From Hydrogenivirga caldilitoris (GTDB lineage Bacteria > Aquificota > Aquificia > Aquificales > Aquificaceae), in contig NZ_RCCJ01000001.1 of assembly GCF_003664005.1 (NCBI RefSeq), forward strand, positions 930,001-994,000: 64,000 nucleotides of DNA, in the 5' to 3' direction. Below the pieces are notes generated by a model. The model had not been told where the DNA came from, did no database searches, and worked only from the letters and a program-made list of their open reading frames with translations. The translations under genes were made by a program, and so were the position numbers. Below, one piece after another: positions 44,571 to 61,477 of the stretch. Within the stretch, counting starts at the first letter, position 1, and each line of letters starts with the position of its first letter.

Positions 44571-44913
44571 CGCATTCCATCTCCATACTTTTGAGAAAGA
44601 GGTCTTCCCCGCCGGTAACCTTTGTGTTCAGTGAGTTACAGTTTGGGCAGACAGCGCTTAACTCTTCCTTTGTAAACTCCCCATTGCAATCCAAGCAAAG
44701 AATTCTGAGGGGTTCAACCTCTATAACAAGCTCAGCGCCGCTGGCTATAGTTCCTTCTTTAAAGGTATTGAAAGCTATATCCAATAGATGAGGTTCAACA
44801 CCGGATAACACCCCCACTTGAATGACCACCTTCGTTACAGAGCTGGCTCTGTTTTCCCTTGCATGCTTTTCAATTAGTCCCAAAAGACTTTGAACTATGG
44901 AAAACTCGTGCAT
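44545..44913 (-). CDS. hypA: Hydrogenase nickel chaperone HypA
   Basis: Small Ni/Zn protein. The N-terminal MHEFSIVQSL (MHE Ni motif) and zinc motif CLDCNGEF...CPNCNSLN are intact. Length (122) is slightly long. It is the first gene of the hyp operon; HypC, D and E are outside this window. Confidence 0.94.
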   Translation of the reverse strand: MHEFSIVQSLLGLIEKHARENRASSVTKVVIQVGVLSGVEPHLLDIAFNTFKEGTIASGAELVIEVEPLRILCLDCNGEFTKEELSAVCPNCNSLNTKVTGGEDLFLKSMEMECDEEAQDKA

Positions 44914-44934
44914 AAATCAGAAGATAAGTTCCGG

Positions 44935-44948
44935 TGAATGACCTTTCA
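44935..44948 (-). promoter_or_regulatory. TetR-type operator at the hyp promoter
   Basis: The + strand reads TGAATGACCTTTCA (TGAA-N6-TTCA), 11 of 14 identical with the operator at 39953-39966. On the minus strand it follows TATAGT by three bases, matching the arrangement at the hydrogenase promoter. It overlaps the hypA transcription start. Confidence 0.6.
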
Positions 44949-44985
44949 ATAACTATACATCCTCACTGAAGTAAAATCTAAACCT

Positions 44986-45645
44986 GTGAAGTACAGTGTT
45001 GTTGCTGATATATTCTCCCAGATAAGCAGGGTATACGACAGGTTTCTCACCATAGCCACAATGGGCAGGATTCACAGGTGGCAGAGGGAGTTGATTTCCA
45101 GAATGCACTCTGAAGGAAACTGGCTTGACGTTGGAACCGGAACAGGTGAGGTTCTTATAAAGCTTGGAGAGTCTTATCAGGGTTCCCGTGTTGGCATAGA
45201 CCCCGCCTTTGGTATGCTTTTGGTAGCTAAAAATAAATGTCGGAGTTGTTACTTTGTTCAGTCCCTCGGAGAGAGCCTTCCCTTCAAGGAAGGGAGTTTT
45301 AAAAATATATCCCTCTCCCTGGTTTTCAGGCACCTTGAGGATAAGCGCTCTTTTATTCAGGAAGCGAACAGGGTCCTGGAGAGCGGTGGGAGGGTAGGGA
45401 TAATAGACATAGGGAGGTTCAGAGGCACACCCGCAGTGCTCTTTTTGATGAAAACTTTACTGAAACCTATAGGACTCTTGATATTTGGAAGGGACAAGTG
45501 GAGCTTCTTCATACACTCCGTGGAGGAGAGTTACAGCATAGACGAGGTCAAGCAGATGTTTGATTCTGCTGGATTCAAGAATGAGTACGTAGGTAAAAGA
45601 CTCTTCGGAATCATACAGATTCTCGTATTTGCTAAAACTGCCTGA
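44986..45645 (+). CDS. SAM-dependent methyltransferase, UbiE/MenG-like
   Basis: Class I methyltransferase resembling the demethylmenaquinone enzyme: DIFSQISRVYDRFLTIATMG, SAM motif LDVGTGTGEVL, and SLVFRHLEDKRSF. Length (219) fits UbiE. A menaquinone role is plausible because mqnA is in the window. The GTG start lacks a Shine-Dalgarno and has TAAAAT 8 bases upstream. Confidence 0.82.
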   Translation: MKYSVVADIFSQISRVYDRFLTIATMGRIHRWQRELISRMHSEGNWLDVGTGTGEVLIKLGESYQGSRVGIDPAFGMLLVAKNKCRSCYFVQSLGESLPFKEGSFKNISLSLVFRHLEDKRSFIQEANRVLESGGRVGIIDIGRFRGTPAVLFLMKTLLKPIGLLIFGRDKWSFFIHSVEESYSIDEVKQMFDSAGFKNEYVGKRLFGIIQILVFAKTA

Positions 45646-46645
45646 TGAACCTTATATCGTTCTCGTAGAAGAGTTTTATGTTGTCTATGCCGTATAAGAG
45701 CATGGCAAGTCTCTCTACGCCCATACCAAAGGCAAAACCCTGGTAGAGCTCTGTGTCTATTCCGCAGGCTTCAAGTACATTCGGATGAACCATCCCACAG
45801 CCCATAACCTCAAGCCATCCCGTTTCCTTACACACCCTGCACCCTTCCTGAGAACATATAACGCAACCTATATCAACCTCTGCTGACGGCTCGGTGAAGG
45901 GAAAGTACGAAGTTCTGAATCTCACCGGCAGGTTTGTCTGGAAGAACTCTCTCAGGAACTCCTCTATAACGTACTTCATATGTCTGAAGTTTGCATACTC
46001 GTTGACAACCAGACCTTCAACCTGGTGAAACATGGGAGAGTGAGTGGGATCGTCGTCCCTTCTGTAAACTTTTCCCGGAGCTATCATCTGTATCGGGGGT
46101 TTTCGCTTAAGCATCGTCCTTATCTGTACAGGGGAAGTGTGGGTTCTCAGGAGGTAGCCGGGCTTGTTCACGTAGAAGGTGTCTTGCATCTCCCTTGCAG
46201 GATGGTCAGTGGGTATGTTGAGCATGTCAAAGTTGTACTTCTCAAGTTCAATTTCCGGTCCCTCCTCAACGGTAAAGCCCATTCCACGGAATATGTTTAC
46301 GATCCTTTCAAGGGTTACGGTTATAGGATGTAGGCTGCCAACAGTTCCCTTTATTGGGATTGTGAGGTCTAACCATTCTCTGGAGAGTTTATCCTCAAGC
46401 TCCCTGTTTTTTAACTCCTTTTCCCTTTCCTTGAGCTTTTCCTCAACCAGTTCCTTAAGTTCGTTGACTTTCTTTCCGTAGTCCTTTCTCTGCTCAGGTG
46501 GTATTTCCTTTATAGCTTTAAGGGCAATACTTATAAGACCCTTCTTTCCAAGATACTTTGAACGAACACCCTGAAGCTCCTGAAGGTTAGAAGCTGAGGC
46601 TATATCCCTTAAAGCGGATTCCTTTATGTCTTCTAAATCGTTCAT
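45632..46645 (-). CDS. pheS: Phenylalanyl-tRNA synthetase alpha chain
   Basis: Charges tRNA-Phe with the beta chain (not in the window). The class II motifs are visible (VYRRDDDPTHSPMFHQVEG and GFAFGMGVERLAMLLYG). The N-terminal coiled coil fits. Length (337) is standard. It lies 2 bases after rplT, which is unusual but known in some phyla; the 3' end overlaps the methyltransferase gene by 14 bases. Confidence 0.96.
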   Translation of the reverse strand: MNDLEDIKESALRDIASASNLQELQGVRSKYLGKKGLISIALKAIKEIPPEQRKDYGKKVNELKELVEEKLKEREKELKNRELEDKLSREWLDLTIPIKGTVGSLHPITVTLERIVNIFRGMGFTVEEGPEIELEKYNFDMLNIPTDHPAREMQDTFYVNKPGYLLRTHTSPVQIRTMLKRKPPIQMIAPGKVYRRDDDPTHSPMFHQVEGLVVNEYANFRHMKYVIEEFLREFFQTNLPVRFRTSYFPFTEPSAEVDIGCVICSQEGCRVCKETGWLEVMGCGMVHPNVLEACGIDTELYQGFAFGMGVERLAMLLYGIDNIKLFYENDIRFIRQF

Positions 46646-46647
46646 AC

Positions 46648-46998
46648 TCAGGCAAGGGCAGCCTTTGCCTTTTCCACAATCTTGGTGAAACCTTCAGGGT
46701 CTCTGACAGCCATATCTGCAAGGATTTTCCTGTCCAACTCTATCCCTGCCTTCTTTAGTCCGTTTATAAACTTGCTGTAGCTGAGTCCGTATGGTCTAAC
46801 CGCTGCATTTATCCTAGCTATCCAGAGCCTTCTGAATTCCCTTTTCCTCTGTCTCCTGTCCCTGTACTCGTAGTAGAGGGCTCTCATTACAGCTTCTTTA
46901 GCCCTTCTGTAAGAGGTATGCCTCATTCCCCTGTAGCCCTTGGCAAGCTTGAGTATCTTCTTCTTTCTCTTTCTTGAAGAGGGTCCCTTAACTCTCAT
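46648..46998 (-). CDS. rplT: 50S ribosomal protein L20
   Basis: Primary rRNA-binding protein. The basic N terminus [20 protein letters not shown] and [20 protein letters not shown] are diagnostic. Length (116) is normal. infC and rpmI, usually upstream, are absent here; proA is divergent across a 74-base gap, so rplT has its own promoter and no room for the usual leader regulation. Confidence 0.96.
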
Positions 46999-47072
46999 AT
47001 CCTTTCCTCCTTGGACTGAAGGAAGTATTTTAGCACAAGTGGTTATAATTTAGAAGGTACGGAGGTATGTAA

Positions 47073-48398
47073 ATGGAAGTTGGTACCGAAAAGCTAAAAG
47101 CCTATGCCGAGGAGAAGGTAGAGAGGGCAAGGAGCGTTTTAAGGACGTTGATGTCTCTGAAAACAGACGTAAAGAACAGGACGCTCCTGAGAGCTGCAGA
47201 GCTCCTTGACGAAAAGAGGGATTACATAAAGGAGGAGAATAAAAAGGACATAGAGTATGCAAAGGAGATAGGTCTAAAGCCTGCCGTTATAGACAGGCTC
47301 GTTCTCAACGACAAGAGGATAGACGGGATGATAAAGGTCCTGAAGGACGTTGCAAGCCTTCCCGACCCCGTGGGTGAGGTCATAAAAGCCTGGAATCTGC
47401 CGAACGGTCTCAAGGTGGGGAGGATGAGGGTCCCCTTAGGAGTGATATTTATCGTCTATGAATCAAGACCCAACGTTACTGTAGAGGCAGCATCCCTATG
47501 CATGAAGTCCTCCAATGCTGTTGTCCTGCGGGGAGGTAAAGAGGCTATAAACTCAAACAGCGCTCTCGTGGAGATACTCAAGGAAGCCTGCAGGGAAACG
47601 GGATTTCCTGAGGAAGCGGTGCAGTTTATAGACAGAGCCGAGAGGGAGATAGTCTGGGAAATTCTGAAGATGGAAGGAAAGGTGGACGTAGCGATACCGA
47701 GGGGAGGGGAGAGCCTTATCAGAGCGGTTGCGGAGCATGCGAGAGTTCCAGTCATAAAGCACTACAAAGGTGTGTGTAACATATACGTGGACGATAAGGC
47801 TGACCTTGAGAAGGCTTACGATATAGTTTACAACGCCAAAGTTCAGAGACCCTCAGTCTGCAACGCTGTAGAGAATCTCGTGATAAACAGGGGCATACTC
47901 AAGGAGTTTCTGCCCAAAATGGCTTACTACCTTGGAAAGGCTGGTGTGGAACTCAGGTGCGATGAGGAGAGCCTTCAGGTAATAAAGTCAGACCCAAAAC
48001 TCTCCTTCGTGAAAGCCGTCCCTGCTACTGAAGATGACTATTACGAGGAGTTCCTTGACTTAATAATCGCTATTAAGGTTGTAGGTGATGTGAATGAAGC
48101 TATAGCCTTTATTGAGAAATACGGTTCCAGGCACTCAGATGCAATAATTACTGAAGACTACACTAGAGCGATGAAGTTCCTGAGGGAGGTGGACTCGGCA
48201 GCGGTTTACGTGAACGCTTCCACGAGGTTCACCGACGGGAACGAGTTCGGTTTGGGGGCGGAGATGGGTATATCCACCGACAAGATCCACGCGAGGGGAC
48301 CTATGGCTTTAGAGGAGCTAACAATCCCCAAGTTCATAATCTTGGGTGAGGGACAGATCAGGGACAACTTCGGTGTTCCGGAAGAGTTTAAGAGATGA
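47073..48398 (+). CDS. proA: Gamma-glutamyl phosphate reductase
   Basis: Second step of proline synthesis. The catalytic Cys lies in KHYKGVCNIYVD, with FIVYESRPNVTVEAA and NASTRFTDGNEFGLG as family markers. Length (441) is slightly long because of the N-terminal extension. Shine-Dalgarno ACGGAGGT lies 9 bases before the ATG, and TATAAT stands at 47045-47050. Confidence 0.96.
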   Translation: MEVGTEKLKAYAEEKVERARSVLRTLMSLKTDVKNRTLLRAAELLDEKRDYIKEENKKDIEYAKEIGLKPAVIDRLVLNDKRIDGMIKVLKDVASLPDPVGEVIKAWNLPNGLKVGRMRVPLGVIFIVYESRPNVTVEAASLCMKSSNAVVLRGGKEAINSNSALVEILKEACRETGFPEEAVQFIDRAEREIVWEILKMEGKVDVAIPRGGESLIRAVAEHARVPVIKHYKGVCNIYVDDKADLEKAYDIVYNAKVQRPSVCNAVENLVINRGILKEFLPKMAYYLGKAGVELRCDEESLQVIKSDPKLSFVKAVPATEDDYYEEFLDLIIAIKVVGDVNEAIAFIEKYGSRHSDAIITEDYTRAMKFLREVDSAAVYVNASTRFTDGNEFGLGAEMGISTDKIHARGPMALEELTIPKFIILGEGQIRDNFGVPEEFKR

Positions 48399-49594
48399 TG
48401 CTAAAAAACGAGCTTCAGCTTAAGCTTAAAGCAAACCTAAACCTTTTGCTCAGAAACCAGGTGGAGATACTCCTCCATCCAGTTCAGGAACTTGAGCAAC
48501 TTCTTAAAGAGGAGAAGGAATCTAATCCGTTTATAGAAGAGGTTTGCGTGTGCGGAAGGGGGTATGAGCTTTTTGAGGAAAGGAAGTCTCCTGAACCCAT
48601 CGTGAAGGCTCACCCACTGGAAACCTTGCAGAGGAACGTGAGAGCTGAGCTGGAAGGTATTGACATTGAAATAGCGAACGAACTGATATCTCAAACTGAC
48701 GAGAGGGGCTTTTTTAAAGGAGACATATCAAAAATAGCGAGAAAGTATGGCGTAGATGAGAGTTACGTAGAGGATATAAGAGAATTTATCATGAAACTTG
48801 AGCCGCTTGGGATTTGCTCAAAGAACTTGCTTGAGTTTGTTAAACTCCAGGTTGAAGAGCTTTACCCTGACGAGCCTGAACTTTTAAGTGCCTTTGAGGA
48901 AGCTCTTGCAGGCAAACCTTTGCCTAAGGAGGCAAAGCTTAAGCTAAGTCATGTGAGGCTATCACCCATAGAGGAAGATGTATCCGTACCCCGCGTAGGG
49001 AAAGTGGACGCAGTTATAGAGCTGGACGATGGGGAGCTGGTAGGATACGTGTATGAAGAGCTGATAGAGATAAAGCCTAACCGTTACTATATGGAAGTGC
49101 TACCAAAGGTTAAGGGTGAGGCAAGGGAGTTCCTGAAAGAGTATATGGAGAGGTATGAGAACTTTAAAAAGATACTCTCAATAAGGAAGGAAAACCTGAA
49201 GGGTATTCTTAACGAGATAATTACCGTTCAGGAAGCCTTCCTAAAGGGTGAGGGAAACCTGAAGAGTTTACTGGTCAAGGATGTTGCCCAAAAACTGGAT
49301 ATAAGCGAATCTACAGTTAGCAGGTTGATAAGCTCAAAGTACGTCAAGACGCCTCAAGGGACTTATCCTTTCAAGTTTTTCTTCGTAAGGGAAACGGTAG
49401 GAGGAGTATCCCAGGAGGAACTTATGCGAGAGATAAAGGAGGTTATATCCAAGGAAGACCGGAGAAAACCTCTGAGTGATGATGACATAGCAAGGATACT
49501 CAAAGGTAAGGGTTACGATGTGGCGAGGAGAACGGTTGCCAAGTACAGGGAAGTTTTAGGAATACCGTCCTCCAGAGAGAGGAGAGAGAGATGA
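48395..49594 (+). CDS. rpoN: RNA polymerase sigma-54 factor
   Basis: Alternative sigma factor requiring NtrC-type activators. Region I (QLKLKANLNLLLRNQVEILL), core-binding domain, HTH (KDVAQKLDISESTVSRLISS) and RpoN box (ARRTVAKYRE, near residue 388) are intact. At 399 residues it is short, as in Aquifex. The start overlaps the proA stop. It likely reads the promoter at 23053-23068. Confidence 0.96.
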   Translation: MMLKNELQLKLKANLNLLLRNQVEILLHPVQELEQLLKEEKESNPFIEEVCVCGRGYELFEERKSPEPIVKAHPLETLQRNVRAELEGIDIEIANELISQTDERGFFKGDISKIARKYGVDESYVEDIREFIMKLEPLGICSKNLLEFVKLQVEELYPDEPELLSAFEEALAGKPLPKEAKLKLSHVRLSPIEEDVSVPRVGKVDAVIELDDGELVGYVYEELIEIKPNRYYMEVLPKVKGEAREFLKEYMERYENFKKILSIRKENLKGILNEIITVQEAFLKGEGNLKSLLVKDVAQKLDISESTVSRLISSKYVKTPQGTYPFKFFFVRETVGGVSQEELMREIKEVISKEDRRKPLSDDDIARILKGKGYDVARRTVAKYREVLGIPSSRERRER

Positions 49595-50655
49595 AGCTGA
49601 AAGAGGTGAAAGACCTTATAAAACGGGAAGGGCTTGACGCGTTTCTCTTCTCATCTCAGGCTAACGTTTTTTATCTTTCTGGCTTCAGGTCAACCCACGC
49701 TTACGCTGTGATAACTCCAGACTCCCAGTACCTTTTAACCGATAGCAGATACTGGGATAGGGCTAAGGAAGAGCTCAAAGGTTGGGATGTGGTTCTGATT
49801 AAGGGAAAAGCTGTAAGCTTTATAAAGGGTTTTCTCCGGGAGAGAGGACTGACCAGAGTTGGATATGAAAGTGATAGGGTCAGCTGTGATTTGAGAAAGT
49901 CTCTAAGAAGTACAAGGATAAAGTGGAAGGGTTATTCCGGTTTTCTTAAAGAGATACGTGCCGTAAAAACCAGGGAAGAGATAGAGCTTATGAGGGAAGG
50001 TGTTAAGAGAAGTGACAAGATATATATGGAACTGCTTAACTACATTTCGCCGGGCATGAGGGAACTAGAGGTCAGGGGTTTCATAGTGGGTAAGATATTT
50101 GAGTACGGTGGGACTGGTGAGAGCTTCCCGGCTATAGTTGCCAGCGCTGAAGGGTCAGCCGTACCTCACTGGGAAAGCTCCCACAAGAAGCTTAAAGCGA
50201 GCGCGCCTGTGTTGATAGATATGGGTCTAATATGGAAAGGCTACTGTACAGACTTCACCAGGACTTTCTATCTGGGTTCTCCGGACGAGGAATTTTTAAA
50301 GGTTTATAACATAGTGAAGGATGCCCACCTGTTTGCCCTTGATAAGGCTCGGGTGGGTAGTAAGCTCGGCGATGTGGACAGAGCGGCAAGGGAGTATATA
50401 GAGGAAAAGAATTACGGGAAGTACTTTACCCACACTACGGGGCATGGCATCGGTGTTGAAATCCACGAGTATCCGAGAGTTTACTATAAGGGTGAAGATG
50501 CCAATAGGTATATAGAGGAGGGTATGGTTTTTACCATAGAGCCGGGCATTTACCTTCCTGGGAAGTTCGGGGTCAGGCTGGAGAACATAGTTGCTATAGT
50601 TAACGGAAGGGGTGAGCCCTTATCGGGTATAGACTTAGAGCTCGTAAAAGTTTAA
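49591..50655 (+). CDS. pepQ: Xaa-Pro aminopeptidase (M24)
   Basis: Metallopeptidase cutting dipeptides or peptides with proline in second position. The N-terminal creatinase domain is followed by the pita-bread fold with the metal ligands D (VLIDMGLIWKG), D (YCTDFTRTF), H (THTTGHGIGVE), E (IEPGIY) and E (RLENIV). Length (354) suits PepQ or YpdF. The start overlaps the rpoN stop. Confidence 0.93.
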   Translation: MKLKEVKDLIKREGLDAFLFSSQANVFYLSGFRSTHAYAVITPDSQYLLTDSRYWDRAKEELKGWDVVLIKGKAVSFIKGFLRERGLTRVGYESDRVSCDLRKSLRSTRIKWKGYSGFLKEIRAVKTREEIELMREGVKRSDKIYMELLNYISPGMRELEVRGFIVGKIFEYGGTGESFPAIVASAEGSAVPHWESSHKKLKASAPVLIDMGLIWKGYCTDFTRTFYLGSPDEEFLKVYNIVKDAHLFALDKARVGSKLGDVDRAAREYIEEKNYGKYFTHTTGHGIGVEIHEYPRVYYKGEDANRYIEEGMVFTIEPGIYLPGKFGVRLENIVAIVNGRGEPLSGIDLELVKV

Positions 50656-50699
50656 CCTTCGTCATAGAAAGTGCCCTCTGCATAACCTAAACTTCTGGC

Positions 50700-51302
50700 A
50701 TGGAGAGGAAAAAAATTGTAAGCCCCATAAATCTCAGAGAGGATAGGCTTCCCCCGGGGCAACACTGGATTAACTATCCGATCGTTTACGATATAGTTGA
50801 GCGCCTGCCAAAATTTGATATTGAGAGATACAGGTTTGAGGTGTGGGGAGAGGTTGAAAACCCCATAGAGCTTTCCTATGAAGAGGTCCTCAATCTTCCA
50901 TCTGTGGAACTGGTTGCCGACTTCCACTGCGTTACCAGGTGGAGCGTAAGAGATGTCCAGTGGGAAGGAGTCCCAACTTCCGAGATAATCAAGCTTGTAA
51001 AACCGAAACCCGAAGCTGGGTACGTTTTCGTATACTGTCTGGAAGGGTACACAACGAACATGCCTATTGAATACTTTTCCAAGGAAGACTCAATACTCGC
51101 CTACAAGATGTTCGGTGAGACTATACCCCAAGAACACGGCTACCCGCTCAGACTCGTCGTACCACAGCTCTATGCTTGGAAGAGCGCAAAGTACGTATGG
51201 GGAATTGAGTTTCGGAGAGAGGATAAACCCGGATACTGGGAAGAGAGAGGTTATCACATGGTCGGTGAACCTTGGAGAGAGCAGAGATACTGGGGAGATT
51301 GA
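50700..51302 (+). CDS. Molybdopterin-dependent oxidoreductase, YedY/sulfite-oxidase fold
   Basis: The 200 residues form the Moco domain of the sulfite oxidase family. The Mo-ligand cysteine is in VADFHCVTRWSVRDVQWEGV. The N terminus lacks a Tat signal, so it appears cytoplasmic, unlike YedY. Substrate unknown. No partner haem subunit is next to it. Start is uncertain by a few residues. Confidence 0.85.
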   Translation: MERKKIVSPINLREDRLPPGQHWINYPIVYDIVERLPKFDIERYRFEVWGEVENPIELSYEEVLNLPSVELVADFHCVTRWSVRDVQWEGVPTSEIIKLVKPKPEAGYVFVYCLEGYTTNMPIEYFSKEDSILAYKMFGETIPQEHGYPLRLVVPQLYAWKSAKYVWGIEFRREDKPGYWEERGYHMVGEPWREQRYWGD

Positions 51303-51903
<601 letters not shown>

Positions 51904-51905
<2 letters not shown>

Positions 51906-51997
51906 AAAGGCTCGCCCGGGCGGGCGAGCAAAAACTCTTGGGGAGGGAGGGGGAGGGAGTTTATCACTCCCGGCCTCTTTCTCACCTATTGAGCTAT
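51904..51997 (-). ncRNA. Candidate C-rich small RNA with terminator hairpin
   Basis: Starting about 6 bases after the promoter at 52003-52031, the minus strand forms three elements: hairpin CUCA-AUAGG-UGAG, hairpin GGGAG-UGAUAAA-CUCCC, a single-stranded run UCCCCCUCCCUCCCC, then a strong 8-bp hairpin (GCUCGCCC/GGGCGAGC, 51910-51929) and CUUUCU. The pyrimidine run resembles the C-rich, anti-Shine-Dalgarno-like loops of regulatory RNAs (UCCCC-type). The terminator has only a weak U tract, and no homologue was checked. Confidence 0.6.
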
Positions 51998-52002
51998 GAT
52001 TT

Positions 52003-52031
52003 AATATACCAAACCCAAAACATTTTGTCAA
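52003..52031 (-). promoter_or_regulatory. Promoter of the C-rich small RNA
   Basis: TTGACA (52026-52031), 17-base spacer, TATATT (52003-52008) on the minus strand: one of the best sigma-70-type promoters in the window. No open reading frame of any size follows, which supports an RNA product. Confidence 0.72.
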
Positions 52032-52112
52032 GTGGTTTGAAAACTGTTGAGAATATAAGCTGCGAATGGACCTGTTCTTTATTATATTAATATACTACCA
52101 GGTAGGGAGGTT

Positions 52113-52637
52113 ATGCTGGGTTTTATTCTCCCCACCTTTCTTATAGCGGCAGCAACAGTTCTGGGAGGAGAGAATATGAAACTGGAGAGCACAGCTTTTA
52201 AGGAGGGAGAGGTTATCCCTGTGAAGTACACCTGTGAGGGTATTGACGTTTCACCACCCATTACATGGTCCGGAGCGCCTGCAGGTACGAGGAGTTTTGT
52301 GTTAATAATGGACGACCCAGACGCACCGATAGGGACCTTTACCCACTGGGTGGTTTACGATATACCATCTGATGTGGGTGGCTTCGCTGAAGATTTACCC
52401 AAGGTGAAGGAGATAGAGGGGATAAAGCAAGGTCTGAACGATTTTGGTTATATAGGCTACGGCGGACCCTGTCCACCGAAAGGTCATGGTTACCACCGTT
52501 ACTTTTTTAAACTGTTCGCTCTTGACATTGACAATGTTGGACTACCTCCAGGAGCTTCAAGACAACAGGTAGAGGAAAGGATGAAGGGACATATCCTTGG
52601 GGAAGCCTCATTTATGGGTAGATATAAGAGAGACTAA
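52113..52637 (+). CDS. PEBP/YbhB-family protein
   Basis: Phosphatidylethanolamine-binding-like fold. DDPDAPIGTFTHWVVYDI and GPCPPKGHGYHRYFFKL are family signatures. A signal peptide is visible (residues 1-17), so it is periplasmic. Shine-Dalgarno GGGAGG is 2-8 bases upstream. Function is unknown in the family. Its 3' end overlaps the convergent thioredoxin-like gene by 30 bases. Confidence 0.88.
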   Translation: MLGFILPTFLIAAATVLGGENMKLESTAFKEGEVIPVKYTCEGIDVSPPITWSGAPAGTRSFVLIMDDPDAPIGTFTHWVVYDIPSDVGGFAEDLPKVKEIEGIKQGLNDFGYIGYGGPCPPKGHGYHRYFFKLFALDIDNVGLPPGASRQQVEERMKGHILGEASFMGRYKRD

Positions 52638-53054
52638 TTCCGGAGGTAGTTGGGGAAAGTTTTTAAGTACCTCACCCCTTTCATTAAAAATTATCGTGGC
52701 CGGTAGGAAAAGGAGCGTAACCTTGTTGGCGAATTCACCCTTGGGGTCTGCCAAAACAGGGTAGTTAGGTTTTATGTTGTTCTTTTGAAGTACCTCCTTT
52801 ACGTCTTGAACGTCCATCATCACAGCTATGGACACAAGGGGGACTTCAAGCTCAGGATAAACCACCGTCAGGCGCTTCAGGTCTTCAACGTGTCCCACAC
52901 AGGTTCCAGACCATACGTACACTATAAACTTTTTACCCCTAAACTGTGAGAGTTTTATCTCCTTACCATCTATACTTCTAAGAGAAAGGTTATAAAGGTG
53001 GTCGCTACTGCAAGATAAAAGAAGTACTGTAAAAAGAAGTAGCAGTACCTTCAT
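52608..53054 (-). CDS. Thioredoxin-like lipoprotein (TlpA/ResA-like)
   Basis: A lipoprotein signal (LLLLFTVLLLSCSS) precedes a thioredoxin/peroxiredoxin fold: LSQFRGKKFIVYVWSGTC, then LADPKGEFANKVTLLFLPAT. Only one cysteine stands in the usual redox spot (SGTCVGH), so the CxxC of TlpA is absent. It overlaps the PCuAC gene by 4 bases and probably takes part in copper delivery or cytochrome oxidase assembly. Confidence 0.8.
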   Translation of the reverse strand: MKVLLLLFTVLLLSCSSDHLYNLSLRSIDGKEIKLSQFRGKKFIVYVWSGTCVGHVEDLKRLTVVYPELEVPLVSIAVMMDVQDVKEVLQKNNIKPNYPVLADPKGEFANKVTLLFLPATIIFNERGEVLKNFPQLPPELVSLISTHK

Positions 53055-53485
53055 CGGTGATGCATCTTCATGCCCATACTTTTTACAGGGGCACTTACAT
53101 TTACCTTTCCACTCTTCCTGAATATAAGTACTATATCCACCTTATCCCCAGCTTTAAGAGGTTTCTTTAAGTTTATAAGCATTACGTGGTTGCCCATAGG
53201 CTTGAATTCAACAGAGCCACCTGCCGGGACTTTCACCTCTTTGAGCGGTCTCATCTTCATCATACCATCTTCCATAACGGTCGTATGTATCTCCGCAGTT
53301 TCTGATACGGTGCTTTCAACACCAACAAGGTAATCATCCTCATTTCCCACATTCTTCAGGGTAAAGAAGGCGGCACTCATAGTTGAAACTGGGGGAACTT
53401 CCCTAACCCACGGGTTTTCAATAATGAGCCTTGGCTGGGAGAATACGAGCCCGACAATCAGAAGCAGCATAGCAAATACCTGCAT
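53051..53485 (-). CDS. Periplasmic copper chaperone PCuAC
   Basis: Delivers Cu(I) to cytochrome oxidase. Signal peptide, then the H(M)x10Mx21HxM site: EIHTTVMEDGMMKMRPL and MGNHVMLINL. A Met/His-rich tail (KSMGMKMHHR) adds metal binding. Length (144) fits. It stands between the SCO gene and the thioredoxin-like gene. Confidence 0.9.
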   Translation of the reverse strand: MQVFAMLLLIVGLVFSQPRLIIENPWVREVPPVSTMSAAFFTLKNVGNEDDYLVGVESTVSETAEIHTTVMEDGMMKMRPLKEVKVPAGGSVEFKPMGNHVMLINLKKPLKAGDKVDIVLIFRKSGKVNVSAPVKSMGMKMHHR

Positions 53486-53495
53486 ATTAGCCTCC

Positions 53496-54080
53496 TTAAA
53501 GCAGTTTATCTATATCTTGAGCCATAAGTTCGGGTTTCTGTCTCGTAGACGGGTATATGAGTTTTAGATTGCCTTCAGGGTCTATAAGGTATATGTAAGC
53601 CGTGTGGTCAACGAGATAACCCGTCTTTGACTCTGTCTCCACCTTTTTGTAGAAAGCCATATAGTTCTTAGCAACCTTTTCTATTTCGCTGGGAGAACCT
53701 GTCAGTCCTATAAAGCTTGGATAAAAGTACTCAGCATATTTCTGGGCTATCTCCGGTGTGTCCCTTTCCGGGTCAACGCTTATAAATATCACCTGAACCT
53801 TCTCCCTAGCTCTTTCGGGTATTGAGTTCATAGTTTTTGAGAGAACCTGAAGGGCAGCAGGACACACGTCCGGGCAGTGAGTGTATCCAAAAAACATAAG
53901 GACTACCTTCCCTTTAAAGTCCGAAAGGCATACCTTTTTCTCTTTACCTTCTTTCCATCCTGTAAGGCAGAACTCCTTTGCAGGTTTATCGTACAGGGTG
54001 CCATTAAACTCCTGCTTCTTTTCGCAGGAAAGAACGAGGAGAGCTAAGAAGATAGTAAACACTAACCACGGTTTTCTCAT
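53496..54080 (-). CDS. SCO1/SenC copper-binding assembly factor
   Basis: Assembles the Cu-A site of cytochrome c oxidase. The copper site is CxxxC (THCPDVCPAAL) plus His in LVDHTAYIYLID. A lipoprotein signal is present (LLVLSCEKK). Length (194) fits. Its start overlaps the metallo-beta-lactamase gene by 4 bases, linking an O2-reactive protein with oxidase assembly. Confidence 0.93.
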   Translation of the reverse strand: MRKPWLVFTIFLALLVLSCEKKQEFNGTLYDKPAKEFCLTGWKEGKEKKVCLSDFKGKVVLMFFGYTHCPDVCPAALQVLSKTMNSIPERAREKVQVIFISVDPERDTPEIAQKYAEYFYPSFIGLTGSPSEIEKVAKNYMAFYKKVETESKTGYLVDHTAYIYLIDPEGNLKLIYPSTRQKPELMAQDIDKLL

Positions 54081-54838
54081 ACTGGTAAAGTATAATCCTT
54101 TTCAGAGAGCAAATCAACACCGCATTCAAGCTGGGAAACCCAATCTATGAACCTGTTAACCAGATCTCTGCCTCTGAACACCGCCCCGTGTTGGGGAGCT
54201 ATTATTTCAATGTCAAGATTTCTGACCATGTTAGCCCACAACTTCAGCACCTTCCCGGAAGCCATGTATCTCCTGTGAAAACCCTCCATGTATCTTATGT
54301 GGCTATCAAAGTCCTCAACGAATACGTAATCCTGTCCCAGAGAAGCTCCCAAGTCTCCTGAGAAGAGTATCTTAGAGCAGGGGTCGTAAACTTGAAAGTT
54401 GCCGGGAGAGTGGATAAAGTGAGCTGGTATTATGAGTAGTTCGCAGTCATCACCCAGCTTTAACTTTCTCCCCCCATCTTCAATGGGTACTACCCTACCT
54501 TCAAGTTTGGAGTCCAGACCAAAGTGAGGCAGGAAACGTATCCAGAGTTTTGATATGAGAGCCTGGGCTTGAGTTGTCATAAGCCAGTAGTTTATGCTCG
54601 CCACTATATCAGGGTCCTGGTGGGACAGAAAGACATACTTGACCTGTTTGGGGGGTATAAGAACGGACATATCTGCAAACAGCTTGGACTGAACCTTATG
54701 CCCTCCAGGGTCAAGGAGCATAGCCTCGTTGTTGTGTATGAGGAGAAACTGGTTTGCCTGAACGGCACTTGCAGGGGTAAGCTCCTCAAAGAGGAAGACC
54801 TTGTGGTTACCCGAATCAAACAGTTTTGTTCCGCTCAT
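54077..54838 (-). CDS. Metallo-beta-lactamase-fold diiron protein (ODP/flavodiiron-like)
   Basis: Belongs to the ODP group, related to the diiron domain of flavodiiron NO/O2 reductases. Metal-site motifs: VFLSHQDPDIVAS (HxDxD-like, the usual second His changed to Gln), AHFIHSPGNF, FSGDLGAS and APQHGAVF. There is no flavodoxin domain (253 residues). In relatives this domain senses or reduces O2 or NO. A Crp-type palindrome lies 13 bases upstream. Confidence 0.86.
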   Translation of the reverse strand: MSGTKLFDSGNHKVFLFEELTPASAVQANQFLLIHNNEAMLLDPGGHKVQSKLFADMSVLIPPKQVKYVFLSHQDPDIVASINYWLMTTQAQALISKLWIRFLPHFGLDSKLEGRVVPIEDGGRKLKLGDDCELLIIPAHFIHSPGNFQVYDPCSKILFSGDLGASLGQDYVFVEDFDSHIRYMEGFHRRYMASGKVLKLWANMVRNLDIEIIAPQHGAVFRGRDLVNRFIDWVSQLECGVDLLSEKDYTLPV

Positions 54839-54850
54839 CTCGCCACCTCT

Positions 54851-54868
54851 TTATGATTTATCTCATAA
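54851..54868. promoter_or_regulatory. Crp/HcpR-type palindrome upstream of the diiron protein gene
   Basis: TTATGA-TTTATC-TCATAA is a perfect 6-6-6 inverted repeat, with the TGA-N6-TCA core of Crp-family sites. It sits between the divergent diiron-protein and GspL-like genes. HcpR-type sites are known to govern nitrosative stress genes, which fits the neighbour; the Crp/Fnr regulator at 16807 is one candidate. Confidence 0.55.
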
Positions 54869-54919
54869 TTCTCTATGATAGCATATACACTATAGAAGCT
54901 CTACAATATCTCTAAACAG

Positions 54920-56080
54920 ATGATATACACAGGCGTTGATGGAGCTAAAAGCGTAAGTGTTGACTTCTCCTTTCTTAAAAGGGATTGGAAAATCTCGGAC
55001 AGAAAGGGCAGAAGGATATACGTGGTTCCTTCCCATCTGAGTTTTGTGAAATTGGAAGACACAGAGGTTAGTAACCTGTACGACCTGAGAAGAGCCTTAG
55101 CCCTTGAGATAGAGGAAAGGTTTGGAGAGGTTCTTTGGGACGTTAAACTCAAAGGTAAGAGGTACTATCTGGGAGTTGTGAGAGACTTTCCCGTTCCGGA
55201 AGATGCTTTCTCCATAGAGCCGGAAATTTTCTCCCTGGCGAGGGTGCCCAGGGCTCTTTCCCTTGACGATTGTTACGTCCTTGACCTCGGAAGGAAAAAG
55301 ACAACCCTGGTAAGGGTGTCCGAGGGTCAACTTCAGTCCTACAGGGTTATCCTGAAAGGTGGCGATTACATAACCCAATACCTTGCCCAGAGGGAAGGTG
55401 TCTCCTTTGAAGAGGCTGAGAGGATAAAGCTTTCAGAAGGCTTGAAAAACTCCAACGTCAGGGACGCTTTGGAGAAGATAATAGCCTCTCTGGGCAGGGA
55501 TATAAAGGGAACTATCCTTATGAGCGGAGGGGGTAGCAGGATGCTCGGGTTGAGGGAGCTCTTTGATAAGACTATAAAGAACGAGTATGTTTCTCCGGAG
55601 CTTAACTCTGCCTTTGGAGCCTCCCTTAAGTTTGTTTACAGGGACTGTTCCCCAGACTTCATAGGGGAAGAACTCTCAGAAAAAGAGCTTAAAAGGGTTA
55701 TGCTCGCCTTTGGGTCTTCCCTTTTAATCTTCCTTATCTCTGTTTCATCTATGAACTTTTTGGGCGACCGCTTTGTAAGAGAAATTAGGGAAGCGGAGAG
55801 AAAAGCTTTCAAAGAGGGGTTTCCCGAGCTTCCAACGATAGCCGTTAGAGACCAGGTTAAGAGTATGGTCACCTCTGGAGGTTATGAGCTCACGAAAGAC
55901 CTGTTAAAACTGTCTGAAAAACTCAAAGAGGGTGTAGAGATTTACAAGTTGGAGTTTAAGGACGGAAAACTCAGTGTTGTGGGTAGCACGAGAGAGGAGA
56001 AGATTGCCACAGAACTCGGCGCTAAATCTTTAAAGAAGACTCCAGAAGGAGCTTACGAGTTTGAGGTGGAGATAGAATGA
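54920..56080 (+). CDS. GspL/PilM-PilN-like assembly protein
   Basis: An actin-like cytoplasmic domain (about 1-250; LDLGRKKTTLVRV, LMSGGGSRMLGL) is followed by one membrane helix (about 258-280) and a periplasmic ferredoxin-like part. This is the order in GspL (type II secretion) or a PilM-PilN fusion. It is followed by a GspM/PilO-like gene with a 4-base overlap. No other secretion or pilus genes are adjacent. Confidence 0.78.
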   Translation: MIYTGVDGAKSVSVDFSFLKRDWKISDRKGRRIYVVPSHLSFVKLEDTEVSNLYDLRRALALEIEERFGEVLWDVKLKGKRYYLGVVRDFPVPEDAFSIEPEIFSLARVPRALSLDDCYVLDLGRKKTTLVRVSEGQLQSYRVILKGGDYITQYLAQREGVSFEEAERIKLSEGLKNSNVRDALEKIIASLGRDIKGTILMSGGGSRMLGLRELFDKTIKNEYVSPELNSAFGASLKFVYRDCSPDFIGEELSEKELKRVMLAFGSSLLIFLISVSSMNFLGDRFVREIREAERKAFKEGFPELPTIAVRDQVKSMVTSGGYELTKDLLKLSEKLKEGVEIYKLEFKDGKLSVVGSTREEKIATELGAKSLKKTPEGAYEFEVEIE

Positions 56081-56475
56081 GCAGGTATTTAAGTCGCAGA
56101 GTGGTTTACCTCTTCTCCGTGGGTTTACTGGTCCTTATACTTGGGTACTCATTCACCAGTTTAAGTGAGCTAAGGGACAGGGTGACTCACGAGTACTTTA
56201 AGCACAAAGAGTTCCTCTTAGACCTGAAGTTGGCGAAGGAGGTGAAAAAATCAACCCCGACGGAGAGCTCTTTGAGGGAGCTACTGGGCAGTATGAGGGT
56301 CAATATAGAGTCTGTGTATGCCTCCGAAGGCGGTATTGAGGTTAGGTTTGAGACTGACTGGAGAAGACTTCCCCAACTTATAAAAGAGCTTGAAAGCAGG
56401 TACAGGATTGTGAATTTTTCCGCCGTTGATAATACTGGCAAGGGTTTCTTTAAGGCACGGGTGGTTGTGCGGTGA
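56077..56475 (+). CDS. GspM/PilO-like membrane protein
   Basis: One membrane helix (about residues 9-29), a coiled segment, and a small periplasmic domain (MRVNIESVYASEGGIEVRFE), as in GspM or PilO. At 132 residues it is short. Its GTGA-type overlap with the next gene and position after the GspL-like gene support the call. Confidence 0.72.
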   Translation: MSRYLSRRVVYLFSVGLLVLILGYSFTSLSELRDRVTHEYFKHKEFLLDLKLAKEVKKSTPTESSLRELLGSMRVNIESVYASEGGIEVRFETDWRRLPQLIKELESRYRIVNFSAVDNTGKGFFKARVVVR

Positions 56476-57119
56476 GCCTGTTTGAAGGTGTATCACTGAG
56501 ATACGACCAGTGGTACGAGAAACCTTTCGGCAGGTCTGCCTTTGAACTTGAGTTAAGCTGCCTTAAAAGGCTGGTGGGTAACTTCAGAAGGGGGCTTGAA
56601 GTTGGGGTTGGGACAGGTAGGTTTGCCTCTGCCCTGGGTGTGGAGTTTGGACTGGACCCATCCTTTGATATGCTGAAGCTTGCCAGGAAAAGGGGAATTA
56701 AATGTGTCCAAGGTGTTGGGGAAGAGCTACCTTTCCGGGACAGGAGCTTTGACCTTGTTCTTATCGTGGTTTCCATATGTTTCGTGGAGGAACCCTTGAG
56801 GGTCCTAAAGGAGAGCAAGCGTGTCTTGAATGAAGGCGGTAAGCTCATACTCGGTTTGATTCCAAAGGAGAGCCTGTGGGCTGAGTTCTACACAAAGAAG
56901 GGCATAGAAGGTCATCCCATTTACAGACACGCAAAGTTTTACTCTCTGAAAGACATTGAGGTCATGCTCTCGGAAAGCGGTTTCGCAATAGGCTCCGTTA
57001 CAAGCACGCTCCTGGAAGAACCTCAGGACGAGAGACCTATCTCTAACAAGGCTATCGTGAAAGGTTTTGCAAGGAATGCGGGTTTCAGCTGCATAAGCGC
57101 TACTTTAACACCTCTGTGA
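56472..57119 (+). CDS. SAM-dependent methyltransferase
   Basis: Class I Rossmann methyltransferase: GLEVGVGTGRFASALG (motif I), VQGVGEELPFRDRSFDLVLI (motifs II/III). The 215-residue protein begins with a GTG overlapping the GspM-like stop. Substrate unknown. Its 3' end overlaps the convergent hydrolase gene by 20 bases. Confidence 0.85.
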   Translation: MSLFEGVSLRYDQWYEKPFGRSAFELELSCLKRLVGNFRRGLEVGVGTGRFASALGVEFGLDPSFDMLKLARKRGIKCVQGVGEELPFRDRSFDLVLIVVSICFVEEPLRVLKESKRVLNEGGKLILGLIPKESLWAEFYTKKGIEGHPIYRHAKFYSLKDIEVMLSESGFAIGSVTSTLLEEPQDERPISNKAIVKGFARNAGFSCISATLTPL

Positions 57120-57966
57120 AAAACTCAACCGCGATAGCACTCAGGTCTTCAGCGGCAAGGTCTCTGAAGAAGTGGTCTGCGTAGTCTATAACCTCAAGCC
57201 TTACGTTCTTCTTGTTTTCTATGTAGGGGTTCAAAAAGTCGGGCAGGTCTTTAACCCTGTCATCCATTCCTCCAGCCACAACCAGTACGGGGATACCAAG
57301 CCTCTGGAGGGAAACTCCTATGTTCCTGTCAAGCCCGTAATAGGTGTACAAGGTTCTTGCACTAACCTTCACCTTCTGACAATAGAAGAAGCTCGTTTCC
57401 AGAAAGGTCTTCCCCTTACCCGTTTTCACCAGCTTCTCAGCCTCCTTCAGCAGGGGGTGTTCCCTTGGAATGCCCTTAGCTGGGGCTACCGCAAGCAGAG
57501 CAACTATGCTTTTATCCCCCTTCATCTCCTCGGCGGTATGTATAACCTGCTGCCCACCTATGGAGTGCCCGGCAAGAACTATCTTTTTAACCCCCTGAGC
57601 TTTGAGCCACTTTATCCACTCCTTTATTTCCCTTATGTTCAGCTCGTAAGGATTATCAATTGGGTAGGAGCAGTCATAGGGCTCCTTCCTGTCACTCCTT
57701 CCAAGGGTAAGGGTGGGAGATAGGACCGGGAAACCTGCAGACACCCAAAGCTCTCTCTGCTGGGCTATGGGTTCTCTCATACTATAAGTCTGGAAAAGTC
57801 CATGGAGCCACAAAACCGCTCCCTTCTCCTTCGGGTCAACCCCCTCTGGAACAACCCATTCGGCGTTAGCCTTTAACTTCCTACCTTCAAAGTCTATGTC
57901 TATGGAGACAGGCTTCCCAAAGGAAAAGACGTACAGAAAAACTATTAAAAAGAGCAACCCCCTCAT
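57100..57966 (-). CDS. Exported alpha/beta hydrolase
   Basis: The catalytic triad is visible: Ser in AGHSIGGQQV, Asp in GGMDDRVKD, His in YADHFFRDL. A signal peptide (MRGLLFLIVFLYVFSFG) begins at 57966, which has AGGAGG seven bases upstream; a longer frame has no such site. It is 288 residues. Substrate unknown. It is divergent from another hydrolase 29 bases away. Confidence 0.87.
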   Translation of the reverse strand: MRGLLFLIVFLYVFSFGKPVSIDIDFEGRKLKANAEWVVPEGVDPKEKGAVLWLHGLFQTYSMREPIAQQRELWVSAGFPVLSPTLTLGRSDRKEPYDCSYPIDNPYELNIREIKEWIKWLKAQGVKKIVLAGHSIGGQQVIHTAEEMKGDKSIVALLAVAPAKGIPREHPLLKEAEKLVKTGKGKTFLETSFFYCQKVKVSARTLYTYYGLDRNIGVSLQRLGIPVLVVAGGMDDRVKDLPDFLNPYIENKKNVRLEVIDYADHFFRDLAAEDLSAIAVEFFTEVLK

Positions 57967-57995
57967 ACTTACTACCTCCTGGATATAATTAAACC

Positions 57996-58691
57996 ATGTT
58001 CTTTTACGATGAGAACAATCCAGAGAAGCTCTGGATACACCTTCACGGCTTTGCAACTAACGTTCTTGGTTCAAAGATAGAGTTTGCGCGGAACTACTTT
58101 AGGAGAACAAAGGCGTACTCATTCTTTGCCATGGATATGGATTACGAGAAACACACAACAACGGAGGTTCTTATCGTTCTTGAGGCTATCGTTCTTGGTT
58201 TTTCGGAAAGATACAAGCACATAACACTGTGCGGAAGTTCCCACGGAGCGTATATCGCAACCAACTACATAAGGTTCAGGAAACTCGGTAACATCAAAGG
58301 TCTCCTGCTGCTTGCACCGTCCTTTGAGACCTTAAGTCTGATAGTAAAGGAGCTCGGTGAGGAGAAGGTTAAGAGGTGGCTTGAGGGTAAAGAGACTCTG
58401 AGGTTTAAAGAGCAGGACCTAGAGATAGAGGTCAGACAAGACTTCGCAACAGACATAATAAGAAACGGGTATGAGATTCTCCAGGGGAACGAGGTCAGGT
58501 TCCCTGAAGAGCCTCCCGTTGACATAGTGATAGTTCATGGAGAAGAAGATGAGGTAGTTCCCATAGAGAGAACGAGGCTCTTCGTTGAGCATGTGAGGGT
58601 GAATAGGTTTCTGGAAGTTGAAGACGACCACCAGCTCAGTAAAAGTTTCGGAAAAGTTCTTACAGAACTTGTTGAGAGAGGCGAGCTTTGA
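57996..58691 (+). CDS. Alpha/beta hydrolase (YqiA-like)
   Basis: Cytoplasmic hydrolase/esterase: HLHGFATNVLGSK, the nucleophile Ser in LCGSSHGAYIA, Asp in HGEEDEVVP, His in DDHQLSK. Length (231). A TATAAT hexamer lies 6 bases before the ATG, without a Shine-Dalgarno. Substrate unknown. Confidence 0.84.
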   Translation: MFFYDENNPEKLWIHLHGFATNVLGSKIEFARNYFRRTKAYSFFAMDMDYEKHTTTEVLIVLEAIVLGFSERYKHITLCGSSHGAYIATNYIRFRKLGNIKGLLLLAPSFETLSLIVKELGEEKVKRWLEGKETLRFKEQDLEIEVRQDFATDIIRNGYEILQGNEVRFPEEPPVDIVIVHGEEDEVVPIERTRLFVEHVRVNRFLEVEDDHQLSKSFGKVLTELVERGEL

Positions 58692-58727
58692 TTTGAAGAG
58701 AACTCCAGTAGGACTTAAATTTCCCCT

Positions 58728-59627
58728 ATGAAGTGTAGAATCTGTGGAAAGAAACCAGTTATATACATGCCCCATCACAGGCTCGCCCTCTGTAAGGAGG
58801 ACTTCATAAGCTGGTTTGAAAGGTACACGGATAGGACTATAAAAGAGTTTTCCATGTTTTCGCCTGAAGACAGAATACTCGTTGCGGTCTCCGGAGGTAA
58901 AGACAGCCTTGCTCTCTGGCATGTCCTTAGAAAACTTGGATACGAGGCAGACGGCTTTTACCTTCATCTGGGTATAGGTGGATACTCTGAGCGTTCAAGG
59001 AATAAGGTTGAAAGTTTCGCCAAAAACCTTGGAGCAAAGGTTATAGTTGTTGACCTGAGGGAAGAGATCGCAGACATACCTCAACTGGAAAGGCTCACCT
59101 CAAGGGAAGCCTGTTCGGTATGCGGTCTTGTTAAGAGATACAACTTCAACAGGGTTGCTAAGGAGCATGGATATAACGTGGTTGTGACAGGGCACAACCT
59201 TGATGATGAGGCGAGCTCACTGCTGGCAAACGTTATAAATTGGAACATCAAATACCTGGGCAGGAAGTTTCCAGTCCTTGAGGAAGAGGAAGGATTCGTT
59301 AAAAAGGCAAAGCCGTTCTGTAAGTTCTCCGAGAAGGAAACAGCCCTTTATGCCCTTTTGAACGGTATAGACTTCATAGAGGAAGAATGCCCCTTTTCCG
59401 AAGATGCAAGCTCCATCTTCTACAAGGAAATCCTAAACAGTATAGAGGAGAAGTTTCCAGGAACAAAGATGAGGTTTTACTTGGAATACCTCAGGAAGAT
59501 GTATCCCAGGTTCAGGGAAGAGGAAGAGAGAACGCTTCAACCCTGCAAGGTATGCGGTGAACCCAGTCCTTCGGAGATATGTCCAGTATGCAGACTCAAG
59601 GAAAGGATTGCAGCGAAGAGAACCTGA
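58728..59627 (+). CDS. ttuA: tRNA 2-thiouridine synthetase TtuA
   Basis: Makes the 2-thio-T at position 54 of tRNA in thermophiles. The N-terminal zinc ribbon (CRICGKK ... HRLALC), PP-loop AVSGGKDSLAL, the Fe-S cysteines in SREACSVCGLV and CPF, and the C-terminal zinc ribbon (CKVCGEP...CPVCRLK) are visible. Length (299) fits. TTGAAG, a 17-base gap, TAAATT and only 6 bases to the ATG suggest a leaderless transcript. Confidence 0.9.
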   Translation: MKCRICGKKPVIYMPHHRLALCKEDFISWFERYTDRTIKEFSMFSPEDRILVAVSGGKDSLALWHVLRKLGYEADGFYLHLGIGGYSERSRNKVESFAKNLGAKVIVVDLREEIADIPQLERLTSREACSVCGLVKRYNFNRVAKEHGYNVVVTGHNLDDEASSLLANVINWNIKYLGRKFPVLEEEEGFVKKAKPFCKFSEKETALYALLNGIDFIEEECPFSEDASSIFYKEILNSIEEKFPGTKMRFYLEYLRKMYPRFREEEERTLQPCKVCGEPSPSEICPVCRLKERIAAKRT

Positions 59628-59634
59628 ACCTATC

Positions 59635-60396
59635 ATGTTCCTTCAGATGCTCAGAGTAGGAAAGGTAGCTTACCTTAACACACTTCCGATGTTTTACTCC
59701 TTTGGTGGCTTTAAACTCGTTGAGGGGCACCCAACAGAACTTGTTAAGAAGCTCAGGGCTGGGGAGATTGATGCGGGTATAGTATCCTCTGCCGAATACT
59801 TTTTCAATCCACAGGACTACTATATACTCCCTGATATATCCATATCCTCCAAGGGGAAGGTATGTTCCGTTCTTCTCCTTTCTAACAAACCTCTTGAAGA
59901 GGTAGAAAAGGTACGCATAACACCGAACTCTCTGACTTCTCGCTACCTTCTGACCTTTGTCCTAAAAGAGGTACATGGTATAGCACCAAAGGAAGTTACA
60001 GAGGGTGAGGACGCCCTTCTGCTTATAGGGGATGAAGCTTTAAATCTTAGGGAGCTGTACAGGTTCACCTATGACCTGGGCGAGGAATGGTTTAATGCTA
60101 CGGGGCTACCCTTCGTGTTCGCTCTATTTCTGATAAGGAAAGACGTGCCAGAGGAGGGAATCCGGGCTCTACACAGGGAACTTAAAACCTCTATACAGAC
60201 TTTCTTCGCCGACCTTAAAAAGGACAGGGTTCAACTTCCAGGGAACAAAGATTTCCTTAAGCATTACTTCTCTAACTGTATAGATTACGAGTTGGGGGCT
60301 GAACACCTGAAGTCCCTGAGAAGGTTCTTCACCTTCTTAGAGAGGGAAACGGGAAAATCCGCTCCTGAGTTTATCTCTCTCTTTCCCCTCTTATAA
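59635..60396 (+). CDS. mqnA: Chorismate dehydratase MqnA (futalosine pathway)
   Basis: First step of the futalosine route to menaquinone. Solute-binding-like fold: [43 protein letters not shown]. The start at 59635 is preferred to frames beginning within ttuA; ATG 59647 is also possible. The 3' end overlaps the inositol-phosphate synthase gene by 26 bases. Confidence 0.9.
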
Positions 60397-61477
60397 ACTC
60401 CTCTACATACTTCTTAGCCTGCCAGTCCGGATACTGAATGGGTGGGTGCTTCATAGTGTAAGCGCTTATAGAGTAAAGGGGTCCACCGATTCCCCTGTCC
60501 CTGGCAAGCTTTGCACATCTAACCGCATCCATCATTGACCCGGCACTGTTAGGTGAGTCTTCAACATCAAGCTTAAGCTCCACATACATAGGAACATCAC
60601 CAAACAGCTTCCCCTCAAGCCTTATGTAGGCTATCTTCCTATCCTTGAGCCAGGGCACCCAATCGGAAGGTCCTATATGGACGTTCTCCCAGCTTATTCC
60701 TCCGGGTATAATTGAGGTTACCGCCTCCGTCTTTGAGACCTTCTTGGTTTTTAACCTCTCCCTTGCAAGCATGTTCAGAAAGTCCGTATTTCCACCGAAG
60801 TTGAGCTGATAGGTTCTCTCCAACTTTACACCCCTATCAAGGAAAAGTTGGGAGAGTGTTCTGTGAACTATGGTAGCCCCCACCTGGGACTTTATATCAT
60901 CTCCTACCACAGGGATTCCCCTCTCCTCAAACTTCTTTGCCCATTCAGGGTCTGAGACTATAAAGGTGGGCATAGCGTTTATAAAAGAAACTCCAGCCTC
61001 TAAACAGGCTTGGGCATAAAACCTTGCAGCTTCCTCCGAGCCTACAGGGACGTAGTTTATCAATACATCAGCTTGAGACTCCTTTAGAACACTCACAACG
61101 TCCTCAAGTTCATCTTCTTTTTCGTTGGCTAAAACGAAAGTTCTGTCCTCGGGATAGTCCTTCATGTGAGGAGCATAACCGTCAAGAACCTTCCCCATCC
61201 TGACCTTAACTCCCAAATTTGGAACTTCAGGCTCAAATACAGCGGTGCAGTTAGGAGGCGCGAATATGGCTTCAGAGACGTCTTTACCGACCTTCCTGGC
61301 GTCTATGTCCCAGGCTGCCACTATCTCAAGGTTCCATGGCTTATACCCGCCTATGTCCTCAGTCATTATGCCTTCAAGATTTGTATTCTGTCTCTTCTTG
61401 TAGTAATAGATACCCTGTATTAACGAGCTTGCGCAGTTGCCAACCCCCGCAATGGCAACCCTGACCTTTCCTGCCAT
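60371..61477 (-). CDS. ino1: Inositol-3-phosphate synthase
   Basis: Converts glucose-6-phosphate to inositol-1-phosphate. The NAD motif [19 protein letters not shown]-like [15 protein letters not shown] and [11 protein letters not shown] are diagnostic. Length (368) is standard for the bacterial/archaeal form. In hyperthermophiles the product can feed di-myo-inositol phosphate or inositol lipids. Confidence 0.94.

Follow-up and report, generated by a model that had tools for sequence, protein, structure and literature searches.

A conserved C-rich small RNA gene of the Aquificaceae that unites two orphan Aquifex transcripts

What does a strong promoter transcribe when it faces no evident gene? 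In a 64,000-nucleotide stretch of the Hydrogenivirga caldilitoris genome (the window; contig NZ_RCCJ01000001.1, positions 930,001 to 994,000), the first-pass annotation had described a near-consensus promoter on the minus strand, and a C-rich small RNA (sRNA) read from it. The promoter (TTGACA at 52031-52026, a 17-nt spacer and TATATT at 52008-52003, with TG preceding the -10) is as described, having 11 of 12 consensus matches and ranking first among the 29 promoter-like sites in the 20 kb from 44001 to 64000. The sRNA itself is upheld by conservation, promoter, covariation and the published transcripts of Aquifex orthologs, and the C-rich element is almost certainly a real, conserved sRNA gene. 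Transcription is predicted to start at about 51997-51995, and at its 3' end the RNA runs into the final bases of tmk (stop codon 51903-51905), which is encoded on the opposite strand. Names of neighbouring genes, here and in relatives, were read off translations without a family search. The features of the locus are as follows.

52113-52637, plus strand: ybhB/PEBP-like gene, divergent neighbour (name read off the translation) and best candidate target
52003-52031, minus strand: promoter TTGACA-17-TATATT with extended -10, 11/12 consensus matches
51902-51997, minus strand: predicted sRNA of about 95 nt, its start placed from the -10 and its end from the terminator
51955-51971, minus strand: 5' hairpin GGGAG-UGAUAAA-CUCCC, present in the minimum-energy fold
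51940-51959, minus strand: C-run CUCCCUCCCCCUCCCUCCCC, presumed seed, its first five bases also paired in the 5' hairpin
51930-51939, minus strand: linker AAGAGUUUUU, U-rich across all aligned cores
51910-51929, minus strand: terminal stem-loop GCUCGCCC-GCCC-GGGCGAGC, 8 bp and GC-rich, an intrinsic terminator
51902-51909, minus strand: terminator tail CUUUCUAA, found in 36 of 39 cores
51315-51905, plus strand: tmk, convergent neighbour, from the list of open reading frames (name read off the translation)

A DNA search of 61 relatives gave strong matches throughout the Aquificaceae (family f1) and matches at chance level only in families f2 and f3. The covariance model R1, built with the terminal stem only from an alignment (A1) of 39 distinct cores, matches 51 of 64 Aquificaceae genomes at E<=1e-18, with partial matches (E<=1e-9) at contig ends in three more (G016, G034, G078). 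Some of the Aquificaceae genomes with no strong match are incomplete assemblies; G073 (98% complete) and G007, G013 and G085 (90-91%) have none. Across 464 kb of the H. caldilitoris genome the gene scores 93 bits (51901-51977) and the next best match 16.2 bits. The 20-mer C-run is identical, U positions included, in 31 of the 39 distinct cores, and each of the 39 retains at least four tracts of three or more C, though the length of the run varies. The 10-mer CCCUCCCUCC is present in 39/39, a count that is partly circular as cores were selected on the C-tract. Circularity touches the C-run counts generally, because the 32 contig loci, L039-L070, were picked by a pattern demanding part of the C-run plus the tail, and a C-tract expression served to excise every core. 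Among the pattern matches, the spirochaete locus L052 seems to have been hit by chance and was excluded. Contig RFFP01000015.1 (L069), titled Acidobacteria bacterium J001, matches the Aquificaceae locus L085 at 100% identity along 3,077 bp, so that the contig is probably misnamed.

Structure is conserved along with sequence. The 102-nt strand folds to -40.8 kcal/mol, compared with -25.1 +/- 3.1 kcal/mol for shuffles (z -5.15), and none of 200 dinucleotide shuffles is as stable. The GC-rich terminal hairpin of the original description is an 8-bp stem-loop with changes on both sides in six of its eight pairs and 98.4% of cells paired in A1, and with its covariation and the spread of R1 matches the conservation in relatives on which that description had been staked is found. 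The two 5' hairpins that it also drew survive in part: GGGAG/CUCCC forms, its pairs holding in 71.7% of cells and showing little covariation, but the minimum-energy fold pairs the upstream arm also with the linker. The locus thus combines its own promoter, an intrinsic terminator and an unpaired C-rich region, as C-rich trans-acting sRNAs do. The promoter is conserved as well: of 46 distinct loci, 40 have an exact TTGACA and 36 reach at least 11/12 matches, compared with 0.2% of shuffles. TTGACA is missing from L030 and from the type represented by the second copies in Aquifex and related genomes (genus g4 and relatives; L031, L032, L049, L051, L059). An AT-rich, TTGCA-containing stretch lies upstream of these second copies, and given this and the loss of TTGACA their control probably differs from that of the other copies.

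One genome, G019, we take to be that of Aquifex aeolicus VF5, and the R1 search places two copies in it, at 989736-989817 on the plus strand and 1168990-1169072 on the minus strand. Both coincide in coordinates and strand with reported ncRNAs: n68, identical with Aae-65 (989704-989840, plus, 476/756 reads), and n75 (1168974-1169071, minus, 158/79 reads), for which both strands give Northern signals and whose polarity, in the words of the main article, 'remains unclear' (Lechner et al. 2014, PMC4227106). That article credits Aae-65 to Willkomm et al. 2005, lists n68 and n75 apart from each other, as orphan candidates with conservation in 2-4 species, and, supplements aside, makes no mention of the two as one family. 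The first-pass annotation had called for a transcript, and discrete ncRNAs are reported, for the A. aeolicus orthologs only. The H. caldilitoris gene matches the model at 93 bits and has what marks the n68/Aae-65 and n75 family: a C-run and a U-rich linker, followed by a covarying terminal stem with its tail. The Aquifex RNAs likewise have the same type of C-run, terminal hairpin and tail. What the main text of PMC4227106 treats as two orphans, one of open polarity, is here a single directed family, and its promoter and terminator support the C-rich strand as the polarity of n75. Our literature search found no further paper on this RNA; an Aquificae genome was analysed in PMC8632094. Transcription of the orthologs is therefore already known and the sRNA family appears newly recognised, so that what is new here is the family, its reach across the phylum and its fixed C-run.

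The genes beside the sRNA change from genus to genus. In g1, tmk is convergent to it; in g6, g9 and g11 an sfsA-like gene starts 2-6 nt past the tail; g8 has a purD-like neighbour, g3 a convergent DeoR-like gene and g10 an ABC ATPase-like neighbour, and of the two g4 copies one lies by a permease-like and the other by a phosphoesterase-like gene. As promoter and terminator travel along while the neighbours vary, this points to an RNA that acts in trans. At seven of the sfsA-linked loci (L076, L017, L098, L081, L082, L100 and L101, from g6, g9 and g11) the terminator hairpin occupies the Shine-Dalgarno position of the sfsA-like ATG.

Our main reading, to which we assign a probability of roughly 0.55, is that of a trans-acting sRNA whose C-run acts as a seed on a restricted group of mRNAs, pairing with their G-rich Shine-Dalgarno regions, probably with Hfq. 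The reading leans on analogy with FsrA and RoxS of Bacillus subtilis (PMC8216469) and with the Rhizobiales sRNAs that have CCUCCUCCC (PMC3927594). Such pairing would block ribosome loading or hasten decay of the message, and Hfq bound at the U-rich linker and the 3' tail would probably help; the linker is, from its sequence, a possible Hfq contact. Hfq is encoded in the H. caldilitoris genome and in 130 of 136 genomes of the phylum. Two Hfq-like matches are present in most Aquificota genomes and three in most genomes of family f5, and Hfq paralogs seem to be the rule in Aquificota.

Pairing of the C-run with AGGAGG and GGGAGG ribosome-binding sites, as initially suggested, is physically plausible, but it is no better than that of C/U shuffles when scored over the 434 genes predicted in the window and 20 further stretches, together 464 kb or about 26% of the genome. 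In these genes the C-run favours starts over coding sequence by a small margin, with an AUC of 0.633 versus 0.629 +/- 0.010 for its own C/U shuffles, 41% of 150 of which score at least as well, and strong sites (<=-20 kcal/mol) have the same frequency, 3.7%, at starts and inside genes. The first top hits proved to be false starts within a heavy-metal ATPase-like gene and a DNA polymerase III delta'-like gene and were gone after a tighter choice of starts. Long complementary sites were sought in the 64 Aquificaceae genomes; in the 20 stretches examined they lie inside genes, antisense or past gene ends and not at starts. Neither these sites nor a dprA/comM lead gave a target conserved across genera. 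Target prediction at translation starts, proposed as a check on the sRNA, showed no tuning over shuffles and no cross-genus target, with a ybhB-like gene as a lead at genus level.

Two local leads emerged. A scan of 136 genomes and of 14 g13 genomes with the pattern GGAGGGAGGN{2,12}ATG singled out dprA, in four genomes of g13, and a comM-like gene in one; in g13 loci L225, L227, L240, L234 and L221, GGAGGGAGG, a perfect complement of the C-run core, stands shortly before the ATG. A local link of the C-run to DNA uptake in g13 is possible on this pattern. As a target for the family dprA was dropped as lineage-specific, GGAGGGAGG being present in three (L253-L255) of 50 loci, among which several Aquificaceae dprA starts are uncertain, with a fourth in G104/L234. 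The better candidate, within the one genus g1, is the divergent ybhB-like neighbour: in 11 of 13 g1 orthologs with a recognisable start (G014, whose start is unresolved, was left out) the start region falls within the best 8.3% of background, and GGGGG is present at the start in 9 of these 13 orthologs versus 15 of 434 starts generally. The G-rich start signal is absent in G015, in G006 and in the g6 orthologs. In G004 the ybhB-like gene lies 341 kb away from the sRNA, so linkage is not needed. We put the ybhB-like gene forward as a lead rather than a result, because its orthologs are related to one another and we looked at it for being the neighbour.

The absence of tuning to ribosome-binding sites beyond composition would also suit an RNA that acts as a decoy, its unpaired C-run titrating a C-preferring protein rather than pairing with mRNA, as would the retention of at least four C-tracts in 39/39 cores despite varying length. 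Proteins of this preference include Rho, which binds pyrimidine-C sites, and KH-domain proteins. We consider such titration unlikely, as the exact letters of the run, U positions included, recur in 31/39 cores, beyond what a loose protein preference would demand. The same repeated tracts, at least four of three or more in every core, could matter instead as DNA, the G-rich plus strand GGGGAGGGAGGGGGAGGGAG forming a G-quadruplex and the transcript being incidental or serving to open the DNA. This we hold to be very unlikely, given the joint conservation of promoter, covarying terminator and tail, the consideration that transcription uses the G-rich strand as its template, on which the RNA would mask it, and the discrete ncRNAs reported for A. 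aeolicus (PMC4227106).

The first-pass annotation had seen no open reading frame, which is not strictly correct: a 21-codon GUG frame (51967-51902, minus strand) runs through the C-run to a UAA in the tail, with GAGG 6 nt upstream. Translation of this frame into a small protein is highly improbable. Of 45 distinct loci, 25 keep it open between a start codon and the tail UAA, and it is broken in others; most g11 loci lack the start, indels whose lengths are not multiples of three shift the frame (for example -1 in L017 and +5 in L028), the C-rich composition is in itself poor in stops, and changes in the stem preserve base pairs but alter the peptide. The coding reading was rejected on the missing starts, frameshifts and pair-keeping stem changes, and the non-coding reading stands because the frame is not conserved as a frame. 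It is equally improbable that the element is a leader or 3' end of a neighbour (a tmk terminator, an sfsA leader) and not a free RNA, for although tmk adjoins it here and several genera have an sfsA-like start 2-6 nt beyond it, promoter, C-run and hairpin are constant while neighbours differ by genus, and the A. aeolicus ncRNAs are discrete (PMC4227106).

With the trans-acting sRNA as the preferred reading, its likeness to known RNAs can be judged. The C-run had been likened to the anti-Shine-Dalgarno of 16S rRNA; the 16S 3' end here is CCUCCUUUAUAA, and its likeness to a separate C-run plus CUUUCUAA tail is loose. We rejected 16S mimicry, since the tail is not an exact match to the 16S end CCUUUAUAA and relatives have U-tracts. 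The plain U-tract that replaces CUUUCUAA in the relatives of families f3 and f5 suggests that in the Aquificaceae too this stretch is best read as a terminator tail. FsrA, RoxS and CsfG of Bacillus subtilis are likewise small RNAs with C-rich regions, through which FsrA and RoxS bind mRNA targets, but they have several short regions where the Aquificaceae sRNA has one long run (PMC8216469). The Rhizobiales RNAs SmelA075/SmelA099 share with it a conserved C-rich anti-Shine-Dalgarno motif, CCUCCUCCC in their case, amid variable stems (PMC3927594); in them the motif recurs across three or four hairpin loops, in contrast to a single linear run beside the terminator. No Rfam family matches the window at gathering score, and at E<=1 only chance-level matches appear; covariance models thus give no match that would indicate descent from FsrA, RoxS or other Rfam families. 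A viral collection scanned with the tmk protein yielded one distant relative and nothing bearing on the sRNA.

Outside the Aquificaceae, R1 matches 23 of 41 f3 genomes at E<=1.0e-6, a few of these being of a dubious type, f3C. We inspected 25 f3 loci (L103-L122, L136-L139 and L141). In the 11 loci of type f3A the C-run begins 10-21 nt past the -10, TTGACA is exact in nine and all have U-tails. The nine f3B loci (L107, L109, L112, L114, L116, L122, L136, L137 and L139) have GCAUCCCCCUCCCUCCCC and a terminator in common, and in all nine a palindrome, ATGAT-N4-ATC(A/C)T, some 40 nt upstream of the presumed start, which we take to resemble Crp/Fnr-type sites. Type f3B is a second C-rich sRNA type, perhaps a copy under redox or nutrient control; second copies in Aquifex and in f3 have different upstream control sequences. 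The f3C loci L115, L118, L121 and L141 have C-rich runs and terminators without TTGACA and were left out. Five f5A loci present TTGACA-16/17-TATTAT, CCCCCTATCCCCCTCCCTCCTCCCC and a GC hairpin. Kinship of f5 with the Aquificaceae RNA rests on architecture and the shared 10-mer and not on R1 score, because the f5 scores of 22-27 bits are close to those of weak second matches elsewhere, which reach 25.6 bits. At L124 and L126 of f5 the C-rich run and terminator follow directly on an apparent tRNA 3' end, and these RNAs are possibly released by tRNA processing. Weak R1 matches in f2 and f4 (L129, L130, L132) and at L134, L135 and L142 look coding or due to chance and were not counted. In f3A and f5A hardly anything of the RNA precedes the C-run, so that the minimal shared design is a 5' C-run plus a terminator.

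The C-rich sRNA gene is old in the Aquificaceae and has probable relatives in other Aquificota families. More tentatively, and with the odds against it, the Aquificota may share an ancient class of C-rich sRNA in which one fixed core CCCUCCCUCC, often CCCCCUCCCUCC, outlived the divergence of families while the 5' part, genomic site and promoter control changed, the RNA braking G-rich ribosome-binding sites at large instead of a small set of targets.

A 2022 review gives one annotated sRNA for the Aquificae in its Table 1 (PMC9029176), and sRNA regulation in the Aquificota is almost unstudied. The C-rich family unites two orphan Aquifex transcripts and supports a polarity for n75. An sRNA that is present family-wide, keeps its C-run fixed, occurs twice in Aquifex and is accompanied by Hfq in nearly every genome offers an entry point to the question of whether seed pairing works at 70-95 C, and to that of the age of sRNA regulation.
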